A stretch of DNA of 64,000 bases from Pelosinus propionicus DSM 13327. GTDB lineage: Bacteria > Bacillota > Negativicutes > DSM-13327. A program made the position numbers and the translations under genes. This document shows positions 8,076 to 12,482 of the stretch, in pieces. Below the pieces are notes generated by a model. That model ran no database searches, was not told the origin of the DNA, and saw only the letters and a list, made by a program, of their open reading frames with translations. The number at the start of each line of letters is the position of its first letter. Position 1 is the stretch's first letter. Location: contig NZ_FOTS01000015.1 in assembly GCF_900114615.1 (NCBI RefSeq), positions 1-64,000 on the forward strand, in the 5' to 3' direction.

Positions 8076-9395
8076 GTGTCAAAAGTAACTATTATCGGAG
8101 CTGGCTTAGCTGGCAGTGAAGCAGCTTGGCAAGTTGCGGAAGCGGGATATGAGGTGGAACTGCATGAGATGAGACCCCATGTTATGCCGCCCGCTCATCA
8201 TACGGATCAATTTGCAGAGTTAGTATGCAGTAATTCATTACGAGGAGCTGCAATTGAAAATGCTGTTGGATTGCTAAAGGAAGAAATGCGAAAAATGAAT
8301 TCTTTAATCATGAAAGCAGCAGATACAAGTAAAGTACCAGCAGGTGGAGCCTTAGCTGTCGATCGTGATTCATTTAGTAAATATGTAACAGATGCTCTTC
8401 TAAATCATCCTAAAGTAACAGTTATAAGTGGTGAAGTGACTGATATCCCTCAGGAACAATTATTAATTATCGCCAGTGGGCCTTTAACATCTCCAACTTT
8501 ATCAGAAGCTATCGGAAAAATAACAGGTAATGAATATTTGTACTTTTACGATGCTGCGGCTCCTATTGTATTAGGTGATTCTCTTGATATGAGTAAAATA
8601 TATAGAGCCTCTCGTTATGGCAAGGGAGATGATGACTATTTAAATTGTCCCATGAATAAAGCTGAATATGAACTATTCTGGAAAGAATTAACTCATGCGG
8701 AAACTGCCCCTGTCAAAAATTTTGAAAAAGCAATCTTTTTTGAAGGATGTATGCCGGTAGAAGAAATGGCGAGTCGCGGTATTGATACATTGCGTTTTGG
8801 ACCACTGAAACCAGTTGGCTTAGAAAATCCAACTACAGGAGAAAGACCGTACGCAGTAATTCAGTTACGTCAGGACAATTTTGCTGGAACCTTGTATAAT
8901 ATTGTTGGGTTTCAAACACATTTGAAATGGCCTGAACAGGAGCGAGTTTTCCGATTGATACCTGGTTTACAAAAAGCAGATTTTGTGCGTCTAGGTGTCA
9001 TGCATCGTAATACATTTATTAATTCTCCTAAAATTCTATCTACTACGCTGCAAATGATTACAAATCCCAGTATATTCTTTGCAGGACAAATTACAGGCGT
9101 AGAAGGATATGTGGAGTCCGCTGCTTCCGGATTAGTAGCTGGACTTAATGCAAGTCGTATATTATCAGGACTTGAGCCAGTGGTATTTCCGAAGGAAACA
9201 GCCCATGGTGCTTTGTGTCATTACATTACGAATGCCGAAGCTAAGCATTTTCAGCCTATGAATATAAACTTTGGATTATTGCCACCTTGGGTGGAAAAAA
9301 TTCGAGATAAAAAAATCAAAAATCATTTAATTGCTCAACGGTCATTAAATGCTATTGATAAATTTAAAGAAGAATTATACAATAATCTTGCATAA
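8076..9395 (+). CDS. trmFO: FAD/folate-dependent tRNA m5U54 methyltransferase TrmFO
   Basis: Methylates U54 of tRNA using methylene-tetrahydrofolate and FAD. The 439-residue protein starts with the FAD-binding dinucleotide fold [14 protein letters not shown]. The two family cysteines are C51 in LVCSNSLRG and C225 in [10 protein letters not shown]. The C-terminal FAD-contact region includes [17 protein letters not shown]. The start is GTG 8076 after CGGAGGA. It follows topA by 30 bases, the conserved Firmicute order topA-trmFO-xerC-hslV. Confidence 0.97.
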
Positions 9396-9519
9396 TTAAT
9401 GTTATTGTGCTAGTATGAATTAATAAATTTTCCTACATAGCTTGACAAATGAGAGGATCAGTCTTTGTAGTGTTTCGTATTTCGACATAATTTTAACGTA
9501 CATAATTGTTATTCTGACA

Positions 9520-9699
9520 ATGATGCTATTTATCCTATACTTAAAGATTGAAAAGAATGCCTCACAGCACTCTGTAATGAATTATTGGGCAGATATCGAG
9601 GGATTTGTCGAATTTGCTAATTTACAAGTGTTGAGGAGGTTCTTTTTAGTCATGTAGCGAATGTAAAAATTAAAGACGGTCTATCATAATGCATATGTG
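9520..9699 (+). pseudogene. xerC: xerC remnant (tyrosine recombinase, internally deleted)
   Basis: The locus between trmFO and hslV is where xerC (codV) sits in Bacillus. Here only scraps remain. The frame from ATG 9520 encodes FILYLKIEKNASQHSVMNYW and IEGFVEFA, which closely matches the start of the XerC core-binding domain (B. subtilis CodV has ...YLQIEKNYSQ...NY...IEEFETF). The frame then stops at 9657. In another frame, 9648-9677 reads SHVANVKIKD, followed after one more shift by YHNA (9682-9693), resembling the XerC C terminus THVSKE...HHPRA. The whole catalytic part (Arg, Lys, His and Tyr residues) is missing, so no active recombinase can be made. Confidence 0.72.
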
Positions 9700-9719
9700 A
9701 TGCATAGGAGGCGGTGTTT

Positions 9720-10250
9720 ATGTTTCACGCAACAACCATTGTTGCTGTAAAAAAGCAGGGGAAAACAGCAATTGCTGGTGACGGTCAAGTTACTTTTGGT
9801 GGTAATACGATAATGAAACATAATGCTAAGAAGGTTCGACGTTTATATCATGGTCAAGTGTTAGCTGGTTTTGCTGGATCTGTGGCTGATGCATTTACCT
9901 TATTTGGAAAATTTGAAGTAAAGTTGGAAGAATTCAATGGCAATTTATTACGAGCTGCTGTTGAATTAGCTAAAGAGTGGCGTGTAGACAGAGTATTACG
10001 CCGCTTGGAAGCATTACTTATTGTTACAGATGCAGATCATATGTTAATCATTTCAGGAAATGGTGAAGTAATTGAGCCGGATGATGATGTTATGTCTATT
10101 GGCTCAGGCGGTCCTTATGCCTTGGCTGCGGCTCGGGCCTTAGTAAAGCACTCTAATTTATCTGCTTCTGAAATTGCTCGAGAAGCGCTTCAAACTGCAG
10201 CAAGTATTTGTGTATATACAAATGGTAATATCACAGTTGAAGAGTTATAA
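9720..10250 (+). CDS. hslV: ATP-dependent protease HslUV, peptidase subunit
   Basis: Proteasome-like threonine peptidase of the HslUV (ClpQY) complex. The protein (176 residues) starts [12 protein letters not shown], so the predicted mature N terminus after removal of MFHA is a threonine, the usual nucleophile (B. subtilis ClpQ uses serine). Conserved stretches include [23 protein letters not shown] and [18 protein letters not shown] 9720 has AGGAGG at 9706-9711; GTG 9714 is too close. It precedes hslU by 14 bases. Confidence 0.96.
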
Positions 10251-10264
10251 AAAGGGGTGACAGT

Positions 10265-11665
10265 ATGATTGAGATGACACCTAAACAGATTGTAATAGAG
10301 TTAGATAAATATATTGTCGGGCAACAACAAGCCAAAAAATCAGTGGCTGTTGCACTTCGCAATCGATGGCGCAGTAAGCAATTAGCAGCAAACTTACAAG
10401 ATGAGATTGTACCTAAAAATATTTTGATGATTGGACCGACTGGTGTAGGTAAAACTGAAATTGCGAGGCGGCTGGCAAAGTTAGTCAATGCACCGTTTGT
10501 AAAGGTAGAGGCTACTAAATTTACTGAAGTTGGTTATGTTGGGCGTGATGTTGAGTCAATGGTCCGTGATTTGGTAGAAACGGCTATTCGTATGGTGAAG
10601 CAAACCAAAATGCTAGAGGTAACAGAGAAAGCACATCAGTTTGCTGAAGAACGTATATTGGAATTTTTTGTGCCATCTGCTAAAAAAGAAACGCCACGTA
10701 ATCCTTTTGAAATATTATTTGGTGGTACAGCTTCAAATACTGATGTAACATCAAATAAAGTAATTGATGAAAAAGTTGAATCTCCAATATTAAATCGGGA
10801 ATATTGGAAAAAACGATTAGATAATGGTGAATTAGAAAATGAGTTTATAGAAATAATAGTAGAAGATTCTGTAAATCCTATGATGGGAGCATTCTCTGGT
10901 GCTGGCATTGAGGAAATGGGTATTAACATACAAGATATGATTGGAAGTTTTTTACCAAAGAAACAAAAAAAGAAAAATGTAACCATTGCTAATGCTCGTA
11001 AAATTTTTATTCAAGAAGAAGCACAAAAACTTATTGACATGGATGAAGTGATTACCATTGCTTTAGATTTGGCAGAAAACTCCGGGATCATTTTCTTGGA
11101 TGAAATTGATAAAATCGTAGGTCGTGGAAAATCGTCTGGTCCCGACGTGTCACGAGAAGGGGTACAACGCGATATTTTGCCTATAGTAGAAGGATCTACC
11201 GTAGTTACCAAGCATGGTCCTATAAAAACGGATCACATATTGTTTATGGCAGCAGGAGCCTTTCATATGGCAAAGCCCTCTGAACTGATTCCTGAATTAC
11301 AGGGGCGTTTTCCCATTCGAGTAGAACTAACGAATTTATCGAAAACTGACTTAAAACAAATATTAACAGAACCAGCAAATGCCTTAATTAAACAGTACGT
11401 TAGCCTGTTAGAAACGGAAGATGTAAAAATTCAATTTACGGATGATGCCATTGAGGAATTAGCTGAAATTGCTTTTGAAGTAAATTCTCAAACTGAAAAT
11501 ATTGGTGCTAGACGTTTGCATACTATTTTGGAAAAATTATTAGAAGATTTAGCGTTTGATGCACCTGATATAAATGAAAAATTGGTTTTAATCAATAGCG
11601 ATTATGTTAAAACTAAATTAGCACATATTGTAGTGAATCCAGATTTAAGTCATTTTATATTATAA
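10265..11665 (+). CDS. hslU: ATP-dependent protease HslUV, ATPase subunit
   Basis: AAA+ unfoldase that feeds substrates to HslV. The 466-residue protein has Walker [10 protein letters not shown] near residue 58, the pore motif [10 protein letters not shown] near 88, Walker B FLDEIDK near 275 and the C-terminal sensor-2 region with [11 protein letters not shown]. The I domain is in the middle. It starts at ATG 10265 after AAAGGGGTGA and forms an operon with hslV; codY follows after 40 bases. Confidence 0.97.
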
Positions 11666-11705: not shown

Positions 11706-12482
11706 ATGACAACGATGTTAGAACGTACTCGTAAAATTAATAAATTATTGCAAAAATCCGAGAAAGTGGAATATGATGAAATTTCTCGCGTGCTCAGTAC
11801 AGTGATGGAAGCAAATGTGTATATTGTTGCTAAAGATGGGAAAATATTTGGATATGCTTTGTTAGGTGATTTTGAATGTGATTTAATGCGTGATAAAGTA
11901 TTATTGCAAGGATGTTTTCCTGAACGGTACGTAGATTGGTTACTGCGGGTTAACGAGACATCCCCAAACTTAAGTCTTGAAGGAGGTCTTTGTTCTTTTA
12001 GTGAAGATACAGGGTGTATATTCACAGATAAGTTTACTACTATTGTCCCTATTCACGGTGTAGGAGAACGAATCGGCACATTAATTGTAGCTAAATTCCA
12101 TACTGAGTTTCAAGATGAAGATCTTGTTTTAGCTGAATATGGTGCAACTGTTGTTGGTATGGAGATTTTAAGAGATCGTAGTGGGAAAATTGAAGATGAA
12201 GCTCGCAAAAAAGCCACGGTACAAGTAGCTCTTGGTACCCTTTCTTATTCTGAACTTGAAGCTGTGATTCATATTTTAAATGAATTAGAAGGTAATGAAG
12301 GTTTATTGGTTGCAAGTAAAATTGCAGATCGGGTAGGGATTACTCGTTCAGTTATTGTTAATGCTTTACGTAAATTTGAAAGCGCTGGAGTTATTGAATC
12401 AAAATCCTTAGGAATGAAAGGTACTTATATAAAAGTACTAAATGAACGTTTATTTGAAGAATTGAAAAAGCTTAAAAAGTAA
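11706..12482 (+). CDS. codY: GTP- and branched-chain amino acid-sensing repressor CodY
   Basis: Global nutrient regulator of Firmicutes; binds GTP and isoleucine/valine and represses starvation genes. The 258-residue protein has the N-terminal GAF domain (about 1-155) and a C-terminal winged helix-turn-helix whose recognition segment [20 protein letters not shown] is nearly identical to the family consensus, followed by [24 protein letters not shown]. It starts at ATG 11706 after TAGGAGG. It stands at the end of the hslVU operon, directly before the flagellar cluster, the same order as in Bacillus. Confidence 0.98.

Follow-up and report, generated by a model that had tools for sequence, protein, structure and literature searches.

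In Pelosinus, an internal deletion has taken out xerC, and what is left is decaying, very probably because another tyrosine recombinase has assumed its task of resolving chromosome dimers at the terminus. We call this recombinase XerX; on the sequence evidence, it would act on a palindrome adjoining its own gene. The remains of xerC lie in a 64,000-nucleotide stretch of Pelosinus propionicus DSM 13327 (contig NZ_FOTS01000015.1, positions 1 to 64,000; hereafter the window). For the Negativicutes as a whole, a wider reading is probable, if less firmly so: a plasmid-type module resembling Cre/lox settled near dif and supplanted XerC and dif in the resolution of chromosome dimers, leaving living intermediates.

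A xerC pseudogene between trmFO and hslV

The window carries topA, trmFO, a gap, hslV, hslU and codY in this order, and the xerC pseudogene lies inside the trmFO–hslV gap (9393–9713; Table 1). A profile was made from nine intact XerC proteins whose genes occupy the trmFO–hslV interval in different genera of this class. It recognises an N-terminal piece of 37 residues (MMLFILYLKIEKNASQHSVMNYWADIEGFVEFANLQV) with 36.5 bits; 500 shuffled versions of the gap reached no more than 5.4 bits. The same piece reaches 22.2 bits with the Pfam model Phage_int_SAM_1, just below its cut-off of 22.3. In the window, a frameshift splits the C-terminal tail into two fragments, SHVANVKIK and KLKTVYHNAY, which score about 1 bit each, so that its identity depends on alignment with relatives: in G001, G002 and G003 it reads in a single frame (VLFTHVAKEKLKTVYHNAY; profile positions 294–312, 15 bits). 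Profile positions ~65–293, including the catalytic domain, are absent, a loss of ~230 codons. The remnant lacks the complete catalytic domain with the R-K-H-R-H-Y residues of a functional XerC, and both its similarity and its place in the conserved trmFO–xerC–hslV order mark it as a descendant of one. By its sequence, xerC in Pelosinus is a deletion pseudogene. This agrees with the preliminary description, which had read the locus as N- and C-terminal scraps of xerC with the catalytic domain deleted and the tail frameshifted. Its range of 9442–9719 holds both xerC pieces, but 9442–9519 has no detectable xerC similarity and the hslV ribosome-binding site is included. The window comes from Pelosinus, a genus of the Negativicutes, and not from Bacillus, which had served as the reference for the place of xerC.

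Table 1 Features at the xerC locus of the window
Feature	Position	Strand	Evidence
trmFO (439 aa), flanking xerC on the left	8076–9395	+	Pfam GIDA E = 1e-106; ORF
Strongly conserved stretch past the trmFO stop (TGCTAGTATGAATTAATAAATTTT...TTGACA)	9393–9448	+	Near-identical in 7/7 Pelosinus
xerC N-terminal remnant (profile positions 21–57)	9520–9630	+	36.5 bits; Phage_int_SAM_1 E = 1.7e-4
xerC C-terminal remnant, frameshifted	9633–9696	+	Alignment with relatives; VLFTHVAKEKLKTVYHNAY, 15 bits in G001–G003
hslV, right neighbour	9714–10250 (start probably ATG 9720)	+	Pfam Proteasome E = 5e-28
hslU	10265–11665	+	ORF; named from translated sequence and position
codY	11706–12482	+	Pfam CodY E = 1e-58

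The stump is common to all seven Pelosinus genomes that have the locus, with gaps of 321–343 bp and the N-terminal piece in every one; the C-terminal piece is not recognisable in the gaps of G004 and G006. Among 30 loci examined, 12 have an intact xerC in this position, in genera of other families. Shorter N-terminal scraps persist in two sister-genus genomes and in G046. Within Pelosinus, stops and frameshifts fall at differing places (for example NY*ADIEGF), so coding selection is not acting on the window's short open frame. This frame, a 71-aa ORF at 9442–9657, is open only in the window's genome and broken by stops or frameshifts in the other Pelosinus; it is not the conserved, unrelated short gene that had been named as the counter-case to a xerC remnant.

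It is hardly credible that the gap (9396–9713) is a small functional gene or RNA instead of a pseudogene. Portions of it are well conserved throughout Pelosinus, as such a gene would be, but the ORF is confined to one genome, the gap matches no Rfam family, two separate segments are xerC-like, and the conservation beside trmFO fits a promoter. The stretch at 9393–9448 stands out from the remainder of the gap by its stronger conservation and is partly kept outside the genus (in the gaps of g2 and G046); it is probably a promoter of the old xerC–hslVU–codY unit, preserved beside the dead gene.

XerX and a palindromic site at the terminus

XerX is a tyrosine recombinase of 318 aa, encoded outside the window (G000, contig C83:94892–95848). 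Its length in Pelosinus is 318–336 aa; it is present in single copy in six genomes of the genus and absent only from two incomplete ones. The superfamily residues R157, K184, H266, R269, H292 and Y301 are invariant among 26 sequences, and XerX exceeds the Pfam cut-off for PF00589. It falls below every Xer equivalog cut-off of NCBIfam (score/cut-off: XerA 70.9/220, XerD 68.2/329.6, XerC 57.8/335, XerS 50.9/267). The nearest solved relative is Cre, with a profile E value of about 1e-22 compared with 4e-14 for XerD, and Cre also accounts for the top 33 Foldseek hits of a XerX structure model (TM about 0.55); the confidence of this model is moderate (mean pLDDT 84, pTM 0.63), which makes the fold evidence modest.

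The other tyrosine recombinases of G000 (17 domains) were set aside as substitutes for XerC because only XerD, a short form and XerX recur in the genus, and XerX lies at the terminus. The short form, of 186–193 aa, lacks the N-terminal domain (G000:C55:22386 and C117:162; loci L003 and L007). Two XerX copies occur in family f10 (in G035, at C1:2349721 and 2355587, 6 kb apart, and in G018), and a tandem pair in G008 (C232) has a partial match as its second member.

XerX is located at the plus-to-minus switch in GC skew in all seven closed genomes tested, which belong to five families. In G001, where XerX lies at 2.587 Mb, the skew is 0.045 at 2.50 Mb, 0.00 at 2.58–2.60 Mb and −0.08 at 2.62 Mb. 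G002 and G004 show the same arrangement, and these three Pelosinus positions count as one synteny, not as three independent events. In the remaining genomes, XerX is found at the switch at 1.073 Mb (G055), 1.272 Mb (G025), 0.111 Mb (G049) and 2.350 Mb (G035). It is near lexA in Pelosinus, G024, G026 and G114, and the native dif elsewhere in the class is also near lexA.

In Pelosinus, a perfect 35-bp palindrome (TCAATATACGATAATTTAAGATTATCGTATATTGA) lies 60–70 bp upstream of the XerX match, with the structure TCAATATACGATAA-TTTAAGA-TTATCGTATATTGA and thus an asymmetric 7-bp spacer. It occurs once per genome in five Pelosinus genomes, the locus being incomplete or missing in the other assemblies. 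Two bases of the left arm are changed in G004, and both arms are changed, symmetrically, in G006. XerX is preceded by the motif ATAA-N7-TTAT, extended by longer inverted arms, in G008, G013, G021, G022, G024, G026, G037, G039, G043, G046, G110, G114 and G146. In these genomes the spacer is mostly the same asymmetric TTTATAG, while the arms co-vary on both sides (AACTTCCGATAA, AACTATTGATAA, AACTAGTGATAA). No ATAA-N7-TTAT palindrome was found beside XerX in families f4, f10, f11, f12, f17 and f25. Symmetric arms around a fixed asymmetric centre are how the site of a single recombinase should look; why a terminator or operator should preserve its centre is not apparent. As in single-recombinase dif modules, the site adjoins the gene, is unique in the genome and lies at the terminus.

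XerX, XerC and dif across the Negativicutes

XerX is present in 91 of 200 genomes of the class: in 8 of the 78 with two XerC/D hits, 17 of the 24 with one and 66 of the 98 with none. Most of those that have one hit but lack XerX are incomplete assemblies. XerX and the XerC–XerD pair are largely mutually exclusive (8/78 versus 83/122; Fisher p = 1e-16, a value inflated by kinship, which was uncorrected), a pattern repeated in many families, and 66 genomes have XerX alone. In its lineage XerX stands in place of XerCD, as the recombinase of a single-recombinase dif module does.

The loss of dif goes with that of XerC. A canonical dif (0–1 mismatches in 15 positions) lies within 1.5 kb of XerX in seven of the eight genomes that have XerC, XerD and XerX, and at none of 34 XerX loci in genomes without XerC. 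XerC itself is damaged where XerX is present: of five such proteins read, four have lost catalytic residues though they are full length and in an open frame. The tyrosine is replaced by Asp in G022 (L040; His to Gln as well) and in G037 (L042; both His to Gln), and by Glu in G043 (L043; one His to Gln); in G024 (L468) a catalytic His has become Gln. The only intact XerC among the five is that of G110. At the five positions that could be read reliably, which exclude the lysine, nine XerC from genomes free of XerX and all 17 XerD read are intact. A catalytically dead XerC accompanied by XerD perhaps serves a structural role.

At the thresholds used, 32 of the 200 genomes have neither XerX nor XerC/D (G019, G045, G052, G060 and G061 among them), and a search of 140 kb around the skew switch of the closed genome G052 (320–460 kb) detected none of these recombinases. 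Other solutions therefore exist, and XerCD can also be lost by routes that do not involve XerX.

XerD without XerC and dif

No canonical Firmicutes dif was found in Pelosinus with up to 3 mismatches, nor was one found beside XerX. A looser half-site pattern was discarded, as its roughly 40 matches per genome did not exceed the reversed control; the most promising of them belonged to a repeated promoter-like element or to what seems to be coding sequence. The promoter-like repeat (TATAATAATAACTATTATTATGTAAACT) has an XerD-type half-site inside and several copies (G001:C1:1866882, 2500924 and 2506687; G000:C25:4328). A TTATGTTAAGT half-site ~1.2 kb from XerX in G001 and G002 is a possible dif fossil; half-sites of this kind occur frequently in the genome.

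G000 has one XerD (C120; TIGR02225 E = 5e-121). It differs from XerD of G002 by 69 nucleotides and from that of G005 by 107, with no amino acid difference in either comparison, showing strong purifying selection. Being nearly invariant in Pelosinus, XerD is therefore in use. Unloading of SMC by XerD is not known to need XerC. By analogy with Bacillus subtilis, whose XerD unloads SMC at the terminus (cited in PMC12322038), XerD has probably been retained in Pelosinus for this other job. XerD has here been separated from XerC in nature: it persists with hardly any change after the loss of XerC and dif, which makes this second role directly testable.

The preliminary description had assigned dimer resolution to some other recombinase, and XerX is the best candidate for the XerC role. 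Of the specific options it offered, a second XerC copy fell away, since a search with XerD as query recovers nothing but XerD from the window's genome. Reliance on XerD alone became unlikely, given that no canonical dif was found in the genus by motif search or beside XerX and that 9 of 60 genomes in a smaller sample have XerX with neither XerC nor XerD. An XerH/XerS-like substitute was right as to a single recombinase with an adjoining terminus site, but XerX fails the XerS cut-off and is nearest to Cre.

It is quite improbable that XerX is a new partner of XerD in place of XerC, the two sharing one heterotypic site. Such a partnership would suit the intact XerD of many XerX genomes and its strong purifying selection in Pelosinus; against it, the site is symmetric and its arms change on both sides together, XerX occurs without XerC or XerD in both the sample of 60 and the larger set (66/200), and XerX resembles Cre, which acts alone.

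Proposed mechanism and known systems

In the takeover by XerX that we favour, an internal deletion removed the middle of xerC and the remnant is decaying. XerX would act alone on the adjacent 35-bp palindrome at the terminus, four protomers synapsing the two copies of the palindrome in a chromosome dimer. Its conserved tyrosine would cleave at the borders of ATAA|N7|TTAT, strands would be exchanged in the fashion of Cre and Xer, and the asymmetric 7-bp spacer would set the direction. The presence of dif beside XerX in genomes with XerC, the dead XerC proteins and the absence of dif without XerC suggest an order of steps: XerX and its site would land beside dif, XerC would decay first, dif would go next, and XerD would linger or be lost. 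The intermediates, so read, are genomes with XerCD and dif only, with XerCD and XerX and both sites next to each other, with a dead XerC, with a xerC stump and XerD, and with XerX alone.

Cre/loxP of phage P1 is the best match to XerX in sequence and fold, and its site is likewise palindromic, with ~13-bp arms and a short asymmetric spacer. Identity is ~24%, and Cre belongs to a plasmid-phage whereas XerX is on the host chromosome. The loxP spacer is 8 bp, compared with 7 in the XerX site, and the catalytic tryptophan of Cre has a histidine at the equivalent place in XerX. With XerCD/dif, the XerX module shares the chromosomal place and the arm core ATAA/TTAT; the arm of the XerX site, (A)CTTCCGATAA, is similar to ACGTCCGATAA, which is the XerC arm in the Negativicutes dif. 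The module differs in having one enzyme, a symmetric site and a spacer of 7 instead of 6.

One tyrosine recombinase replaces XerCD in streptococci and lactococci (XerS/difSL) and in Helicobacter and Campylobacter (XerH/difH) (PMC5357621). There, as with XerX, a lone recombinase gene adjoins a terminus site of roughly 30 bp (PMC5357621). XerX is shorter, however (about 320 versus about 355 aa), scores far under the XerS cut-off, and has a perfect palindrome with a 7-bp spacer where those sites have imperfect arms and a centre of 11 bp or 6–10 bp. The XerL/dif system of the Legionellales also combines a single recombinase with a terminus site of perfect dyad symmetry (PMC9765430). As described, the Legionella gene is >400 kb from its site and the site arms are unrelated to known Xer motifs (PMC9765430), whereas the XerX gene and site form one module with arms like the XerC arm of dif. 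A search confined to the open-access literature found no described Negativicutes or Cre-like chromosome system, and priority is not certain.

Few substitutes for XerCD/dif have been described (XerS, XerH, XerA and XerL), and XerX would add one found in many families of one class. If the reading is correct, the replacement of XerCD is caught at successive stages and not at its end point alone, which would support a contested proposal: that mobile elements can supply the recombinase for a core function of the chromosome.

Plasmid and viral relatives of XerX

Relatives 45–53% identical to XerX are encoded on plasmids of Alicyclobacillus, Paenibacillus and Sporosarcina. On the Alicyclobacillus plasmid pAACI01, the relative lies 3' of an AbrB/MazE and PIN pair, and TGATGTCCGATAA-GTGATTG-TTATCGGACATCA, with the same geometry as the XerX palindrome, stands ahead of the AbrB/MazE–PIN operon. 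MazE and PIN genes lie across the palindrome from XerX in Pelosinus. In the stretches read from the other plasmid relatives there is no matching palindrome, save an imperfect one on the ALC3 plasmid. The XerX module appears to have come from a plasmid, where it would have served maintenance, to have landed beside dif and to have been recruited to the chromosome.

These relatives bear also on a further alternative, in which XerX is no more than a domesticated or still mobile integrase or a relic of plasmid maintenance, with the palindrome as its operator or attachment site, while dimers in Pelosinus are resolved by XerD alone or tolerated. The abundance of XerX relatives on plasmids and viral contigs would fit this, as would the toxin–antitoxin pair that flanks XerX in Pelosinus as it does on pAACI01, but XerX is single copy and syntenic in the genus, coincides with the skew switch in five families, and by its presence tracks the loss of xerC and dif class-wide, which would be unexpected of a relic. 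We regard this alternative as unlikely and prefer the recruitment of XerX for dimer resolution.

The MazE-like antitoxin and PIN toxin genes flanking XerX were located on the Pelosinus chromosome and on pAACI01 at L232:3425–4086 (−) and L463:1180–1898. The viral contig L388 encodes a relative 44% identical to XerX, with arms CAACTTCCGATA/TATCGGAAGTTG identical to those of G046. Together with L383, L401 and L406, it belongs to a set of viral or plasmid-like contigs with XerX relatives and TCCGATA/TATCGGA palindromes nearby, and some of these contigs may represent mobile elements exploiting the chromosomal site.
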